Of a DNA stretch of 64,000 bases, positions 36,595 to 43,730 are shown piece after piece (the first letter of the stretch is position 1; each line of letters opens with the position of its first letter). Source of the DNA: an uncultured Sunxiuqinia sp. GTDB lineage: Bacteria > Bacteroidota > Bacteroidia > Bacteroidales > Prolixibacteraceae. The notes under the pieces were generated by a model. That model ran no database searches and was not told the origin of the DNA. It was given only the letters and a program-made list of their open reading frames with translations. The stretch covers positions 372,001 through 436,000 of the forward strand of contig NZ_OY782772.1 in NCBI RefSeq assembly GCF_963678245.1. Direction: 5' to 3'. The position numbers and the translations under genes were made by a program.

Positions 36595-36816
36595 AATCTT
36601 TTATGTTTTTGTTTTGCCCCTTTGATGCAAGCTAATAAGAAATGTTACAAGAAAAGGCGAGTAGTTGCAAAAAAAAACTTTTGGTCTTTGGGGGGTGCGT
36701 GATATAAAACGGAAAAGAAGAACAATCATTTTTGATTCTAAAACAGATAAACAAATCTTTTTATTAAGAATCGTAAAATAAATGCCGTTTAAATTTTCAG
36801 TTTAAAATTAAATTGT

Positions 36817-36824
36817 CATATTTG
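36817..36824 (+). promoter_or_regulatory. possible -7 element of the leucine operon promoter
   Basis: CATATTTG at 36817-36824 is one base away from the Bacteroidota -7 consensus TAnnTTTG and lies 19 bases before the leader peptide start, which would give a short 5' leader. A clear -33 element is not obvious. The remaining upstream DNA, 36595-36816, shows nothing else. The call is tentative. Confidence 0.35.
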
Positions 36825-36842
36825 CAGGAAATCATTGAACAA

Positions 36843-36908
36843 ATGACACTCATTAGCTCTATTTCTATTCTCGGTATTCTACTCGGTATTCTACTATGGA
36901 TGCGGTAA
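36843..36908 (+). CDS. Leu/Ile-rich attenuator leader peptide of the leucine operon
   Basis: A 21-codon frame from ATG 36843 to TAA 36906-36908 encodes a peptide with six Leu and five Ile, including the tandem LGILLGILL. All Leu codons are CTC or CTA, which are sparse in neighbouring genes, and all Ile codons are ATT. The LGIL repeat comes from a perfect 12-base tandem duplication (36870-36881 and 36882-36893). It lies 116 bases before leuA, directly before a terminator/antiterminator pair. Such codon content at this position is the hallmark of ribosome-mediated attenuation, so stalling for leucyl- or isoleucyl-tRNA should be the signal. Confidence 0.88.
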   Translation: MTLISSISILGILLGILLWMR

Positions 36909-36980
36909 TGAGAATGGTATGGAGTAACTAATAATAAAAAATAGACATAAAGCCATTCTCAAAAGAGAGTGGCTTTTTTT
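36909..36980 (+). promoter_or_regulatory. transcription attenuator (antiterminator and intrinsic terminator) of the leucine operon
   Basis: Segment 3, AAGCCATTCTC (36950-36960), pairs with segment 4, GAGAGTGGCTT (36965-36975): 11 bp with one G-U pair, loop AAAA and seven T, an intrinsic terminator. Segment 2, TGAGAATGG (36909-36917), is a perfect 9-bp complement of CCATTCTCA (36953-36961), forming the antiterminator. Segment 2 also pairs with CTATTCTC (36865-36872) inside the leader reading frame. Pairings 1:2, 2:3 and 3:4 are therefore mutually exclusive. A ribosome stalled on Leu/Ile codons would mask segment 1 and free 2:3. A ribosome reaching the stop codon would cover segment 2 and allow 3:4. 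Confidence 0.9.
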
Positions 36981-37024
36981 GTGGCGTAAACAATAGTAAC
37001 AGATTATAAATAAATCATTTCATC

Positions 37025-38527
37025 ATGAGCGACAGATTGTACATTTTTGACACTACTTTGAGAGACGGGGAACAAGTTCCCGGGTGTCAGTTAAACACGG
37101 TTGAGAAGATTGAAGTGGCCAAAGCTTTGGAAGAATTGGGTGTCGATGTAATCGAGGCTGGATTTCCAATTTCAAGTCCTGGCGACTTTGAATCAGTAGT
37201 CGAAATTTCAAAAGCGGTAACCTGGCCAACGATTTGTGCCCTTACCCGCGCAGTAGAAAAAGACATTGACGTTGCCGCTGAATCCCTCAAATATGCAAAA
37301 AAAGGACGGATTCATACCGGAATTGGAACATCACCTTACCATATCTACCATAAACTCAATTCAACACCTGAAAAAATTCTTGAACGTGCTGTTGCTGCAG
37401 TCAAATACGCTAAAAAGTATGTTGAGGACGTGGAGTTTTATGCTGAGGATGCCGGTCGTTCGGATAACGAATATTTGGCTAAAGTAGTTGAAGCAGTTAT
37501 TAAAGCTGGTGCGACGGTTGTTAATATTCCTGATACAACAGGTTATACCATGCCCTATGAATTTGGAGAAAAAATCAAATACCTGATCGACAATGTTCGT
37601 GGTGTTGAGAATGCAATTCTATCAACTCACTGTCATAACGATTTGGGAATGGCAACCGCCAATACAATAGCCGGAGTTATAAATGGAGCCCGTCAGGCTG
37701 AGGTAACGATTAATGGAATTGGGGAGCGTGCCGGAAATACATCGTTGGAAGAGGTGGTGATGACCTTAAAGAGCCGTTATCAGGTGTTGGGTCTTGATAC
37801 AAATATCAATACCAAAAATATCTATAAAACCAGCCGATTGGTTTCAAACCTGATGAACATGCCGGTGCAGCCAAACAAGGCGATTGTGGGGCGTAATGCA
37901 TTTGCGCACTCGTCGGGTATTCATCAGGATGGCGTATTGAAGAATCGTGAGAATTATGAAATAATTGATCCCAAAGATGTCGGTATTAATGAATCATCGA
38001 TTGTGCTGACTGCCCGAAGTGGACGTGCTGCATTGAAGCACCGTTTGGAAGTGATGGGCTATGAGTTGACCAAAGAGAAGTTGGAAGACGTTTATGAGAA
38101 ATTTCTTGAGTTGGCCGATAAGAAAAAAGACATCCGGGATGATGATGTTGCTTTATTGGTAGGAGATGCCGAGCAAAAGGAACGTCGCGTAAAACTGGAG
38201 TTCTTGCAAGTGGTAACCGGGAAGTCATTGTTACCAATGGCCTCCGTTCGAATAAACGTTGCCGGAGAAATGTTTGATGCAACGGCTTCGGGTAACGGCC
38301 CTGTTGATGCAGCGATCAATGCAGTGAAGCAGATTATTCGTCGTCAGGTAAGCTTGGAAGAGTTTTTAATTCAGGCCATTACTCGTGGAAGTGACGACGT
38401 TGGTAAGGTGCATATGGAATTGGACTTTGATGGCGTGAAATTCTTCGGATTCGGAGCTCATACGGATATTATCACAGCATCGGTTGAGGCCTTTATTGAT
38501 GCCGTAAATAAGATTCCGGTTAAGTAA
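37025..38527 (+). CDS. leuA: 2-isopropylmalate synthase
   Basis: This 500-residue enzyme condenses acetyl-CoA and 2-oxoisovalerate, the first committed step of leucine synthesis. The catalytic TIM barrel shows [12 protein letters not shown], the metal-binding HCHNDLGMA and [15 protein letters not shown]. The C-terminal LeuA regulatory domain (about 385-500) normally gives leucine feedback inhibition. It is the first structural gene after the attenuator, and leuC follows after 31 bases. Confidence 0.95.
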
Positions 38528-38558: not shown

Positions 38559-39959
38559 TTGGAAGCAAAAACTTTATTCGACAAAATTTGGGATGCTCAC
38601 GTAGTGAAGCAAGTAGAAGGTGGCCCAAATGTATTGTATATTGATCGTCATTTTATTCATGAAGTGACCAGCCCGGTTGCATTTTTGGGCTTGAAAAATA
38701 GAGGGTTGAAAGTGTTTCGTCCAGACCAAACTACAGCAACACCAGATCATAATGTACCAACAATTGATCAGGAGTTGAGTATCAAGGACGAACTTTCGCG
38801 TAACCAGGTAGACATGCTGAAAAGTAACTGCGAAAAGCATGGTATAACTCATCATGGTCTAGGAAGCGAAGGACACGGTGTGGTGCACATCATCGGGCCT
38901 GAAATGGGCTTAACACAACCTGGAATGACCATTGTTTGTGGAGATAGCCATACGTCTACTCACGGAGCGTTTGGAGCTATCGCTTTTGGAATAGGTACCA
39001 GTGAGGTAGAAATGGTGTTGGCCAGTCAGTGTATTATGCAGCCAAAGCCAAAGAAAATGCGTATTACTGTTGATGGTGAACTGAGTAAAGGTGTGACGTC
39101 AAAAGATATCGCACTTTACATTATCTCGCAAATTTCTACTAGTGGAGGAACAGGCCATTTTATTGAATATGCAGGGTCAGCAATTACCAGCCTGAGTATG
39201 GAAGCGCGGATGACTCTTTGTAATTTGAGTATTGAATGTGGTGCTCGTGGAGGAATGATTGCTCCGGACGAAACGACATTCGAATATGTAAGAGGACGTG
39301 AGTTCGCTCCAAAGGGAGAAGAATGGGATAAAACGCTTGCCTATTGGAAAGCGTTGAAGTCTGATGAGGGAGCAAAATTTGATACTGAGTATCATTTTGA
39401 TGCGGCAGACATTGAGCCTATGATAACTTATGGAACAAATCCGGGAATGGGAATCGGAATTACTCAGTCAATTCCTACTGGTAGCAAGATGGAAGGAACA
39501 GATAAAACAACTTTCCTGAAGTCGTTGAGGTACATGGATTACCAACCGGGAGATGCGATGACAGGCAAGAAGGTTGACTATGTATTCCTTGGGAGTTGTA
39601 CCAATGGTCGTATTGAAGATTTTAGAGCTTTTGCTGAATTCGTAAAAGGGAAGAGAAAAGCCGATGATGTAAATGTTTGGTTGGTTCCGGGATCAAAAGC
39701 AGTTGAAAAACAAATTCTTTCAGAGGGGTTGGATAAGATTTTTGAGGATGCTGGGATGGCACTTCGTCAGCCTGGATGTTCTGCATGTTTGGCAATGAAT
39801 GATGATAAAATTCCGGAAGGAAAATACGCGGTATCTACGTCAAACCGAAATTTTGAAGGCCGTCAGGGGCCGGGTGCCCGAACAATGTTGGCCAGTCCAT
39901 TGACTGCTGCTGCCGTTGCAGTAACCGGAGTAATAACAGACCCACGCGAATTGATGTAA
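38559..39959 (+). CDS. leuC: 3-isopropylmalate dehydratase large subunit
   Basis: This 466-residue aconitase-family protein binds a [4Fe-4S] cluster through Cys in GSCTNGR and in the later GCSACLAMN segment. With LeuD it isomerises 2- to 3-isopropylmalate, and can hydrate/dehydrate citramalate-derived intermediates. Translation starts at TTG 38559 ([13 protein letters not shown] follows); no nearby ATG gives a better N terminus. Confidence 0.95.
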
Positions 39960-40001: not shown

Positions 40002-40589
40002 ATGGCATACGATAAATTTGTAACATTAACTTCTACGGCAGTTCCATTGCCTGTGGAGAATGTGGACACCGACCAAATAATACCAGCGCGATTTTTGAAA
40101 GCTGTGGAGCGTAAAGGATTTGGTGATAATCTTTTTCGCGATTGGCGATACGACAAGTCAAATCAGCCGATAACTGACTTTCCGTTGAACGATAGTAAGT
40201 ACACCGGAAAAATATTAGTTGGAGGTAAAAACTTCGGAAGCGGATCGAGCCGTGAGCATGCTGCGTGGGCAATTTATGATTTTGGTTTTCGGGTAGTTGT
40301 TTCCAGCTTTTTTGCTGATATTTTTAAGGGGAATGCTCTGAATAACGGGCTGTTGCCGGTTGTTGTTACTCCGGCTTTTCTGGCGAAAATATTTAAAGCA
40401 ATTGAAAGTGACCCATCTACCGAATTTGAAGTGGATTTGGAAAAGCAAAAATTTACCCTGCTGGCTACCGGGGAGGCTGAAGAATTTGAAATAAATCCAT
40501 ATAAAAAACATTGTTTGCAAAATGGATTGGATGATATAGATTTTCTTGTTGACTCGAAAGAAGATATCGAAGCATTTGAAAATAAATAA
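40002..40589 (+). CDS. leuD: 3-isopropylmalate dehydratase small subunit
   Basis: This 195-residue swivelling-domain subunit carries [14 protein letters not shown] at the N terminus and the substrate-recognition region [14 protein letters not shown]. It forms the dehydratase with LeuC, whose gene ends 42 bases before. cimA starts 7 bases after its stop. Confidence 0.95.
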
Positions 40590-40596
40590 ACGCGTA

Positions 40597-42141
40597 ATGA
40601 CGGGAAAAATGGTTGAAGTAAAAGACCAGGAACTTAGTATAATGGACACAACCTTGAGGGATGGAGAACAGACCTCGGGGGTGTCGTTCACGGATACTGA
40701 AAAGTTAAGTGTCGCCAAAGTGCTGTTGGAAAGTGTAAAAGTTGATCGTATTGAAATTGCGTCAGCTCGTGTTTCTGAAGGCGAATTTGAAGCAGCCCGT
40801 CGAGTTATGGTTTGGGCAAGTCAACTCGGCTATCTTAATCGCGTTGAGATTTTGGGTTTTGTAGATGGGAAAATCTCACTGGACTGGATTGACAGGGCAG
40901 GGGGAAAGGTGATTAATCTACTGTGTAAAGGATCATACAAACATGTCAGCCAACAGCTGAGAAAGACACCGGAAGAACATATTGCAGATATTCAAAAATC
41001 GGTAGATTACGCTGACGAATTGGGTATTGCAGTAAATGTTTATTTGGAGGACTGGTCAAATGGAATGAGAAACTCCAAAGATTATGTGCACTTCATGCTT
41101 GGGCAGTTGAAAGAAATGAAAATTCAGCGCATTATGTTGCCGGATACCCTTGGGATTTTAGATCCGGATGAAACATACGTGTATTGTAAGGAAATGATTG
41201 AATCGTTCCCCGATGTTGACTTTGATTTTCATGCACACAACGATTATGACTTGGCAATTGCCAATGTTTTTCATGCGATTAAAGCTGGTATTCGCTGTGT
41301 ACACACAACCGTAAACGGGCTGGGAGAGCGAGCAGGAAATGCACCTCTTTCAAGTGTGATTGCAACAATCAAAGATCATCTGAAGATGGAAACGAAGGTG
41401 AACGAGAGCATGTTAAATCGGGTTTCAAAACTGGTAGAAACTTTTTCAGGAATCAGAATCCCAACCAATAAACCCCTAATCGGGGAGTTTGTATTTACCC
41501 AGTGTAGTGGAGTGCATGCCGACGGTGATAACAAGAATAATTTATACTTCAATGATTTGTTGCCGGAACGATTCGGACGTACCCGATCATACGCTCTTGG
41601 GAAAACTTCAGGAAAAGCTAACATTAAAGCAAACCTAGAAGACATGGGCATTGAATTGTCGACTGAGGCCTTAAAAATGGTCACGAACCGGATTATTGAC
41701 CTTGGCGATAAAAAGGAAACCGTAACTGCCGAAGATTTACCGTATATTGTTGCTGACGTTCTTCAAGAGAGTTTAGAACAAAAGATTCTCATCAATAATT
41801 ATTCGCTGTCGCACGCCATGGGTTTAAAGCCCTCAGCAACGCTCAGCATACAGATTGATGGAAAAACATACGAATCAACTGCGTCGGGAGATGGTCAGTA
41901 CGATGCTTTTATGAATGCATTGAAAAACATCTATCGTCGGTTGAAAAAGCCGTTCCCAAAATTATTGGATTACAGTGTTACAATTCCTCCGGGAGGAAAA
42001 ACTGACGCATTAGTAGAATCGGTAATTATCTGGCAGCTTGATCGGGAGTTTAAAACCCGGGGGCTGGATTCTGATCAAACGGCAGCAGCTATTAAAGCTA
42101 CAACTCGTATGCTGAATTTATTGGAACATACGAACACTTAA
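40597..42141 (+). CDS. cimA: (R)-citramalate synthase, LeuA paralogue
   Basis: From ATG 40597 the product is 514 residues. The TIM barrel shows [45 protein letters not shown] and FHAHNDYDLA, followed by a LeuA-type C-terminal regulatory domain with IPPGGKTDALVE. These segments resemble Leptospira CimA, as I remember it, more than LeuA; for example ASARVS and YLEDWSNG are shared. Citramalate synthase joins pyruvate and acetyl-CoA, and LeuCD and LeuB, also in this operon, convert the product to 2-oxobutyrate for isoleucine. Many databases would only call it 2-isopropylmalate synthase-like. An upstream frame extension overlapping leuD is unlikely. Confidence 0.8.
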   Translation: MTGKMVEVKDQELSIMDTTLRDGEQTSGVSFTDTEKLSVAKVLLESVKVDRIEIASARVSEGEFEAARRVMVWASQLGYLNRVEILGFVDGKISLDWIDRAGGKVINLLCKGSYKHVSQQLRKTPEEHIADIQKSVDYADELGIAVNVYLEDWSNGMRNSKDYVHFMLGQLKEMKIQRIMLPDTLGILDPDETYVYCKEMIESFPDVDFDFHAHNDYDLAIANVFHAIKAGIRCVHTTVNGLGERAGNAPLSSVIATIKDHLKMETKVNESMLNRVSKLVETFSGIRIPTNKPLIGEFVFTQCSGVHADGDNKNNLYFNDLLPERFGRTRSYALGKTSGKANIKANLEDMGIELSTEALKMVTNRIIDLGDKKETVTAEDLPYIVADVLQESLEQKILINNYSLSHAMGLKPSATLSIQIDGKTYESTASGDGQYDAFMNALKNIYRRLKKPFPKLLDYSVTIPPGGKTDALVESVIIWQLDREFKTRGLDSDQTAAAIKATTRMLNLLEHTNT

Positions 42142-42153
42142 AAGATAAGCCCC

Positions 42154-42651
42154 ATGACCAGATTCACCAAGCAAGGGAAGATCCATTTTCCCAAAAACAA
42201 ATTCTTTCGTCCACGAAGACAATCAGCTAACATTAAAGAAACTGTTATTATTGAAAAATGCTACTGTCCGAATGGACATTCGCTCCTTGATGAAAACAGT
42301 AAATTTAGTGACCACCCTGGAATTAAAATTAAGGTGATAAGAAATGGGGGAGATGAAGGCTTTTTAGTTTTAAGCCCTAAATTTGGAGATTACTCCAAAA
42401 TGAGTATTGATATCACATTCAAAAATGGTGATCTGCTTGAAATGTTTTGCCCGGAATGCAATGCGAAAATTCCAATTTATTCAAGCTGTTACATATGCCA
42501 CAATCATATGTTGACACTTTTTACGACCAAAGATAACTCCTATCAGCATTGTGTTGGAGTATGTCAAAAAGTAGGATGTCATAACTCAAAAATGGTTGAA
42601 AATGAACGAATGATATCAGTTATCAGATCTGGTATAAATAGGAATAATTAA
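42154..42651 (+). CDS. uncharacterised Cys-rich zinc-ribbon-like protein inside the leucine operon
   Basis: This 165-residue soluble protein has a basic N terminus and nine Cys. Clusters lie at CYCPNGH (36-42), CPEC (99-102), CYICHNH (112-118) and CVGVCQKVGCH (133-143), enough for two or more zinc sites. Between them is a beta-rich segment with GDEGFLVLSPKFGDY. It resembles a widespread family of unnamed proteins with CPNGH and CPxC motifs, from memory only. It starts 12 bases after cimA and ends 14 bases before leuB, so it is co-expressed with leucine biosynthesis. Function is unknown. Confidence 0.8.
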   Translation: MTRFTKQGKIHFPKNKFFRPRRQSANIKETVIIEKCYCPNGHSLLDENSKFSDHPGIKIKVIRNGGDEGFLVLSPKFGDYSKMSIDITFKNGDLLEMFCPECNAKIPIYSSCYICHNHMLTLFTTKDNSYQHCVGVCQKVGCHNSKMVENERMISVIRSGINRNN

Positions 42652-42665
42652 CAGAATAAACAAAA

Positions 42666-43730
42666 ATGAAATTAAATCTTGCGGTTCTCCCTGGAGACGG
42701 AATCGGTCCTGAAATAACAGAGCAGGCCATGAAAGCGGTGAAAGCCGTTGCAGTAAAATTTAATCACGAATTAGAATACAAATACGCTTTAACAGGAGCA
42801 ACGGCCATTGATAAAGTCGGTGAGCCTTATCCTGATGACACACACGAATTGTGTATGAAATCTGACGCTGTGCTGTTCGGAGCGATTGGTGATCCAAAGT
42901 ATGATAATAACCCAAAAGCGACGGTACGTCCGGAGCAAGGCTTGTTATTGATGCGTAAAAAACTGGGTTTGTATGCCAATATTCGGCCGGTTGAAACTTT
43001 CGAGTCGCTATTGCACAAATCGCCGCTTCGTCGCGAGTTGGTTGAAGGAGCCGATTTTGTGGCTATTCGCGAGTTGACCGGAGGTATTTATTTTGGTGAC
43101 AAGGGCCGTAAAGATGATGGAAACACAGCTTTTGATACCTGTACTTATACTCGTGCTGAAATTGAACGGATTTTGAAATTAGGCTATGAGTTTGCTTTGA
43201 AACGCAACAAAAAGTTGACTGTTGTAGATAAAGCCAATGTACTGGAAAGCTCACGTTTGTGGCGCGAGGTTGCCCAGGAAATGTCACCCAACTATCCGGA
43301 TGTAAAAACCGAATACATGTTTGTTGACAATGCTGCCATGCAGATCATTCAATGGCCTAAAAACTTTGATGTGATGGTTACTGAAAACATGTTCGGTGAT
43401 ATTTTGACAGACGAAGCCAGCGTAATTACCGGCTCTCTTGGTTTGCTCCCATCTGCATCTATAGGAATCTATACTTCAGTATTTGAACCTATTCATGGTT
43501 CGTACCCACAAGCGGCCGGGAAAGACATTGCAAATCCCATTGCAACCATCCTTTCTGCGGCGATGATGTTTGAATATGCTTTCAACCTTATGGATGAAGG
43601 AAAATTGATTCGCGATGCAGTTAACGCCTCGTTGGCTGAAAAAGTTGTTACCGAGGATATTGCTGAAGGTAAAGCTTTCAAAACCTCGGAAGTTGGCGAT
43701 TGGATTGCGAACTATATTTGCAAAGCATAA
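42666..43730 (+). CDS. leuB: 3-isopropylmalate dehydrogenase
   Basis: This 354-residue NAD-dependent beta-decarboxylating dehydrogenase starts with [20 protein letters not shown] and has [30 protein letters not shown] and the [12 protein letters not shown] region. It converts 3-isopropylmalate to the leucine precursor, and the methylmalate branch to 2-oxobutyrate. It is the last gene of the operon and is followed by a strong hairpin. Confidence 0.96.

Follow-up and report, generated by a model that had tools for sequence, protein, structure and literature searches.

A probable ribosome-mediated attenuator with leucine and isoleucine codons before the leu operon of a Sunxiuqinia genome, and its counterparts among Bacteroidales

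The region 36843-36980 of the DNA analyzed here is very probably (probability of about 0.92, judged from the sequence) a ribosome-mediated transcription attenuator that would control a leuACD-cimA-leuB operon. The window, by which we mean the whole stretch of 64,000 nucleotides, is part of a 4.87-Mb genome (G000, contig C6). Ahead of leuA it holds a leader ORF, a terminator, mutually exclusive pairings of segments 2 and 3 (2:3) and of segments 3 and 4 (3:4), and a 1:2 pairing that overlaps the control codons (Table 1). A complete four-segment attenuator ahead of the leucine operon had been proposed in a sequence-only reading of this DNA, and its leader ORF, three pairings and T-run were found as described there.

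Table 1. Positions of the predicted attenuator elements and of the operon genes in the window.
Feature	Position	Strand	Basis or remark
Promoter-like -7 element CATATTTG	36817..36824	+	Motif statistics; 5/6 to TAnnTTTG
Leader peptide ORF MTLISSISILGILLGILLWMR*, 21 codons	36843..36908	+	Sequence; kept before leuA in relatives
Segment 1, within leader ORF (outer helix 36856-36862, inner helix 36865-36873)	36856..36873	+	Fold, paired changes
Segment 2, immediately 3' of the stop codon; partner is segment 1 or 3	36909..36925	+	
Segment 3; partner is segment 2 (antiterminator) or 4 (terminator)	36949..36961	+	
Segment 4, 3' arm of the intrinsic terminator	36965..36976	+	
T-run of the terminator, 7 T	36974..36980	+	Sequence
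leuA, 2-isopropylmalate synthase	37025..38527	+	NCBIfam NF002086, 754.7 bits (cut-off 532)
leuC, 3-isopropylmalate dehydratase large subunit	38559..39959	+	TTG start in ORF list
leuD, 3-isopropylmalate dehydratase small subunit	40002..40589	+	
cimA-like, probable (R)-citramalate synthase (isoleucine route)	40609..42141	+	NF042433 best match; start codon chosen by the analyst
Cys-rich 165-aa protein, between the cimA-like gene and leuB	42154..42651	+	
leuB, 3-isopropylmalate dehydrogenase	42666..43730	+	

The pairings differed somewhat in extent from those proposed. The 1:2 pairing, given as 8 bp, is present but longer, an inner helix (36865-36873 with 36909-36917) being joined by an outer one (36856-36862 with 36919-36925). 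The 2:3 pairing has 10 bp including one G-U rather than 9 (36909-36918 with 36952-36961), and the 3:4 stem has 12 bp rather than 11 (36949-36960 with 36965-36976; -17.5 kcal/mol). The seven T said to follow that stem exist, but two or three of them lie inside it. Folding of the 200-nt leader gave a z score of -4.2, and none of 200 shuffles folded as well. A terminator pattern scan by itself was non-significant, with 1 terminator found (the 3:4 stem) versus 0.7 expected.

We also folded the leader piecewise, with ribosome footprints assumed from general knowledge. With the ribosome absent, 1:2 formed together with 3:4. When the leader was covered to about 36885 and segment 4 was still unmade, 2:3 formed, and when segments 1 and 2 were left out (coverage to about 36921), 3:4 formed alone. 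At equilibrium the terminator is the more stable structure (-17.5 versus -11.9 kcal/mol for 2:3), and in the complete transcript it still prevails over 2:3 with segment 1 covered; antitermination must therefore be kinetic. Kinetic antitermination is usual for ribosome-mediated attenuators.

We propose that transcription starts a short distance before the leader ORF. In the presence of ample Leu and Ile, the ribosome would reach the stop codon and hide segment 2; 3:4 would form, and transcription would stop near 36980. If charged tRNA-Leu or tRNA-Ile were scarce, the ribosome would stall at about codons 7-14, hiding segment 1 and leaving segment 2 exposed. Segment 2 would then pair with segment 3 once the latter was made, preventing 3:4, and the operon would be transcribed. 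If the leader were not translated, 1:2 would form and the terminator would prevail.

The position of the -7-like element would place the transcription start near 36830. The motif TAnnTTTG, which we take to be the Bacteroidota -7 consensus, is matched at five of six positions in the window, a match that is weak alone because about 34% of shuffles reach five or six. A perfect motif was found no more than 45 nt upstream of the leader ATG in 34 of 75 relatives versus 1.9% of shuffles, and at least five matching positions in the same span in 71 of 75; in 59 of these 71 the motif lies 24-34 nt before the leader. These motif counts argue, without proof, against transcripts that would start downstream of the terminator.

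The gene order downstream of the attenuator is leuA-leuC-leuD-cimA-like-unknown-leuB. Among the best 80 of more matches, LeuA showed up to 90% identity to the proteins of two MAGs, one of Sunxiuqinia and one of Prolixibacteraceae, and the nearest named contigs were mostly Prolixibacteraceae (Draconibacterium, Mariniphaga and Maribellus). The cimA-like gene had its best NCBIfam match in NF042433 CimA at 672.8 bits; because this score is under the model cut-off of 950, its product is a probable, unproven citramalate synthase. The Cys-rich protein had no NCBIfam match, and an unmatched 147-aa ORF stands at the equivalent position in locus L111. Upstream of the attenuator are two divergent genes, one without a known family and the other encoding an ECF sigma factor.

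The mixture of Leu and Ile codons in the leader fits the presence of the citramalate-synthase-like gene in the operon, a point that the sequence-only reading had missed, as it had the breadth of the system. This gene, sharing LeuCD and LeuB, would provide an Ile precursor, and the leader would sense Leu and Ile without Val because the operon yields Leu plus that precursor. Where the downstream genes of leader-bearing, leuA-first loci were in view, cimA was present in 11 of 12. The operon of locus L160 lacks cimA and its leader retains Ile codons; a LeuA-paralog match lies elsewhere in the same genome.

Re-reading of 36843-36908 gave the counts reported earlier, namely 21 codons with six Leu (positions 3, 10, 13, 14, 17 and 18; three CTC and three CTA) and five Ile (positions 4, 7, 9, 12 and 16, all ATT). 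All six Leu codons of the leader are CTC or CTA, the two rarest in the genes of the window: in 46 ORFs, CTC makes up 6.4% and CTA 9.2% of all codons for Leu. If the codons were independent, the chance of six out of six would be about 1.4e-5 (0.156 to the sixth power). The leaders of the family showed a similar preference compared with leuA genes, with shares of 30% versus 3% for CTA, 26% versus 10% for CTC and 30% versus 15% for CTT. An ORF with at least 8 Leu or Ile in 10 residues occurred in 63 of 83 real upstream regions, which are a selected set, versus 1 of 1660 dinucleotide shuffles. Among 46 long ORFs of the window, one, leuA, had such an ORF within 400 nt upstream.

A comparison of leuA upstream regions among relatives, named as a check in that reading, revealed that leader codons, terminator and antiterminator are all conserved. 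Of the 36 genomes of the same family with leuA, 26 have a Leu/Ile leader immediately ahead of it (including G016, whose leader has no ATG start). In the other ten, leuA stands behind ilv-size genes (ilvC-size; ilvN-size in L154). Nine of these have a confirmed ilvD upstream on the same contig, preceded by a Leu/Ile/Val leader; in the tenth (G026), the contig stops short of the ilvD position. In other families of the order, the leader precedes leuA in 11 of 17 genomes (G050, with leuA in two pieces, was excluded), and four of the six without it have an ilvD leader (G044, G046, G054 and G058). Contigs that bear the labels Bacteroides and Phocaeicola carry leu leaders as well. When the leu element was cast as a covariance model, 64 of 148 genomes of the order had matches at E <= 0.01; the E-values are rough, and the matches extend to leaders of ilv and other genes and probably to some hits due to chance.

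Beyond the order, a leader before leuA was absent from all 29 genomes of other orders of the class; a hit in G178 lay inside the upstream gene and was excluded from the count. The draw from the class gave LeuA-like matches in 42 of 158 genomes, some weak paralogs included. In 22 loci of other orders (L123-L144), LeuA is short, at about 380-410 aa, and lacks the C-terminal part (the match stops around residue 380 of 500); no Leu leader precedes leuA in any of them. A credible Leu leader is also absent from the seven loci of other orders with full-length LeuA (L116-L122).

Codon and structure counts were made on leaders with ATG starts. The 170 loci, in which some genomes occur twice, comprised 79 without an ATG-started leader before leuA and gave 83 non-identical leaders; only exact duplicates were removed, and near-identical relatives were retained. 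L094/L170 (G016) and L016 counted as leaderless by this rule, and a leader with another start codon was seen at these loci in separate upstream scans (two scans for G016, one for L016). Exclusion of L118 (ORF within the upstream gene) and L102 (best ORF not adjoining the terminator) left 81 leaders.

By folding, 76 of these 81 leaders have a terminator, counting stems at or below -6 kcal/mol that come with a T-run. In the five that fail the T-run rule (L008, L040, L067, L076 and L101), a stem is visible on inspection in every case, and the T-run there is weak or interrupted. A stricter hairpin search that barred longer loops found terminators in only 56 of 83. For L043 the hairpin taken as the terminator lies further downstream and is probably not the right one; it was kept and counts against the attenuator reading. 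The mean 2:3 energy was -15.8 kcal/mol with the leader's own segment 3 versus -11.2 kcal/mol with segment 3 from dissimilar lineages. In 69 of 76 leaders the own partner paired more stably than swapped ones did on average; it outdid 95% of swaps in 41 leaders and all 50 shuffles in 49. The 2:3 arms differ by lineage, for example TGAGAATGG/CCATTCTCA in the relatives of the window and GGAAGTGAG/CTCACTTCC in Bacteroides contigs; the antiterminator partners change together between lineages.

We aligned 39 of the sequences (alignment A1), in which 99.2% of cells of 2:3 were paired. This helix is nearly invariant, and no paired changes were found in it inside A1. For 3:4, 97.6% of cells were paired and two pairs were altered on both sides. 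The 1:2 pairing was kept in 81.1% of cells versus 76.6 +/- 0.8% in shuffles and 37-49% when slid; both-side changes were found in 31 cells versus 15.0 +/- 2.7 in shuffles, and at four of the six pairs of the outer helix. The rows are related, and shuffles and Fisher's test therefore overstate significance. The swap test was weak for the 1:2 duplex, the own partner exceeding the swap mean in 42 of 76 leaders, and in the window and its close kin the duplex was no stronger than with swapped partners (-10.1 versus -11.2). Compared with shuffles of synonymous codons, the own 1:2 duplex was stronger than average in 57 of 76 leaders.

The codons of such leaders follow the product of the operon behind them. 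Mean numbers per leader in the 81 leuA leaders are 5.2 for Leu, 5.0 for Ile and 0.43 for Val. At least two Val were found in 6 of these 81 versus 30 of 30 ilvD leaders (p = 1.7e-21, overstated because of relatedness), and Val per 10 core residues was 0.06 for leuA leaders versus 3.59 and 2.25 for ilvD leaders. The ilvD leaders come from the 30 best-scoring among matches in 49 genomes: 22 occur with leuA elsewhere or under its own leader, and in 8 ilvD and leuA are joined, with no separate leuA leader. Leaders were chosen by their richness in Leu, Ile and Val together (at least 7 and at least 8 of 10 in the respective sets), which favored Val in neither. Genome G025 has a leuA-type and an ilvD-type leader on one contig (L167). 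With a threshold of at least three in 10 residues, a His-rich leader was found before hisG in 16 of 19 regions and a Trp-rich leader before trpE in 14 of 16, the window's own genome being included in both. In that genome the His leader upstream of hisG (L216, G000:C4 near 335460) reads MYNKLGHYGHHHNNLFIGRP and is followed by a terminator.

Other explanations of the region were considered. The leader peptide is hydrophobic, and its pattern is kept beyond composition in near relatives, as might be expected of a small membrane peptide with a function of its own next to an incidental terminator. We regard this as very unlikely. Val, an easy substitute in a membrane helix, is nearly absent before leuA but common before ilvD, and the residues turn to His before hisG and to Trp before trpE; moreover, the leader favors rare Leu codons, and RNA arms take up some of the ORF and the nucleotides flanking its stop. 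It is even less probable that the ORF and terminator are a vestige and that a protein controls the operon at its promoter. In its favor are the two divergent upstream genes, one of them the ECF sigma factor gene; against it, codons, terminator and antiterminator are kept over family and order, which would be unexpected for a vestige; of the explanations weighed here, we give this one the least credit.

A terminator and an antiterminator alone do not give away the sensor of the signal, and a T-box, a riboswitch or an RNA-binding protein might govern them without regard to codons. The match between leader codons and operon product speaks against such control, which we hold to be very improbable, if a little less so than a vestigial leader. 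Scanning the window against Rfam gave no family at gathering score, T-box RF00230 and the amino-acid leader families included. A lenient scan of 36700-37040 gave as cis-regulatory matches only Phe_leader (24.6 bits) and Thr_leader (21.6 bits; gathering 55), along with chance-level sRNA and snoRNA matches, and up to E = 5 no T-box, riboswitch or Leu leader (RF00512) was listed. T-box, riboswitch and the known Rfam leaders (RF00512 Leu, RF00506 Thr, RF01859 Phe and others) were rejected as candidates, being below their gathering scores.

Ribosome-mediated attenuation is a classic type of switch, but the switch recurs here across a bacterial group for which few descriptions of it exist. The predicted attenuator shares with the leu attenuator of Escherichia coli and Salmonella a short leader, rare Leu codons before leuA and alternative terminator and antiterminator; unlike it, the leader mixes Leu and Ile codons and the operon has a citramalate-synthase-like gene. 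In multivalent attenuators of the ilvGMEDA type, one leader senses several branched-chain amino acids, and the leader of the window would likewise read more than one. Unlike in that type, there is almost no Val before leuA, and relatives gain Val where ilv genes have joined. An abstract by Vitreschak and colleagues from 2004 reportedly lists Bacteroidetes/Chlorobi among groups with some candidate attenuators, and priority of prediction for Bacteroidota may lie with them.

The articles cited here and below are referred to for the parts available to us. The leu operon is the paradigm of rare control codons, with three CUA codons in the Salmonella leu attenuator (PMC1183508). A 2010 paper placed leader-peptide systems in Proteobacteria and Actinobacteria only, and then one in Firmicutes (PMC2965389), and a 2013 survey limited to Rfam families indicated that amino-acid attenuators may stem from gammaproteobacteria, with very few transfers (PMC3766115). 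In Bacteroides thetaiotaomicron, short ORFs in long 5' UTRs are reminiscent of attenuation leaders (PMC7366714); the available part of that article describes neither a mechanism nor any leader for leu, ilv, his or trp. A search of titles and the beginnings of abstracts, with most subscription journals outside its reach, found no paper on leader attenuators of leu, ilv, his or trp genes in Bacteroidota, and the earlier statement that the mechanism is much less documented there agrees with the literature so covered. A conserved set of codon-matched attenuators in Bacteroidales would amount to a transcription-translation-coupled amino-acid sensor and would open transcription-translation coupling in Bacteroidota to direct testing, and leader codons may serve as a guide in gene naming.

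We lean, with clear reservation, toward ribosome-mediated attenuation being a general control of amino-acid synthesis in Bacteroidales. It would act on leu, ilv, his and trp genes and on a gene for a predicted Ala/Val aminotransferase, its leader codons would track the products of operons that merge or come apart, and it would often use two serial attenuators responding to the same amino acids. Such tandem attenuators are more unusual than the single leu switch. Our literature search gave one paper with tandem attenuators in its title, on the Salmonella mgtCBR leader, which has two short ORFs with serial attenuators for different signals, in its authors' words a "singular example" (PMC3641672, available part); in the ilv, trp and aminotransferase pairs, by contrast, the codons of both leaders specify the same amino acids. 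Two gates in series, if real, would multiply repression and widen the response range.

Tandem leaders precede ilvD in 10 of 30 regions, each leader with its own terminator and with a 2:3 pairing better than the shuffle mean. The pair in the window's own genome (L185, G000:C4 near 187070-187415, minus strand) consists of MKIRAIVLNVIILLVVVISQAK and MRHFTTIHLVLLVVILGIR, each followed by a terminator and T-run. Besides the two ilvD elements, the leu covariance model picked up a new site ahead of an aminotransferase-like gene. At that genome's locus L259/L263 (G000:C4:55832-57338, minus strand), two Ala/Val-rich leaders with terminators lie before a PLP-fold gene. In seven homologous regions, such leaders are paired in three (own genome, G004 and G008) and single in G009, and one region (L265) could not be scored, its gene start being miscalled near a contig end. 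The leaders suggest that the PLP-fold gene encodes an alanine/valine aminotransferase; its best NCBIfam match, the MocR-like regulator PdxR (235.5 bits, cut-off 320), counts against this, and valine-pyruvate transaminase was a weaker match (110 bits, cut-off 402).

Tandem Trp leaders were found before trpE in 6 of 16 regions (L220, L222, L223, L225, L230 and L231), with both terminators in five. By the measure used here, the second trp antiterminator was no better than shuffles in four of the six and barely better in two. In the trpE region of the window's own genome (L229), an upstream Trp leader without ATG was seen by eye and looks decayed.
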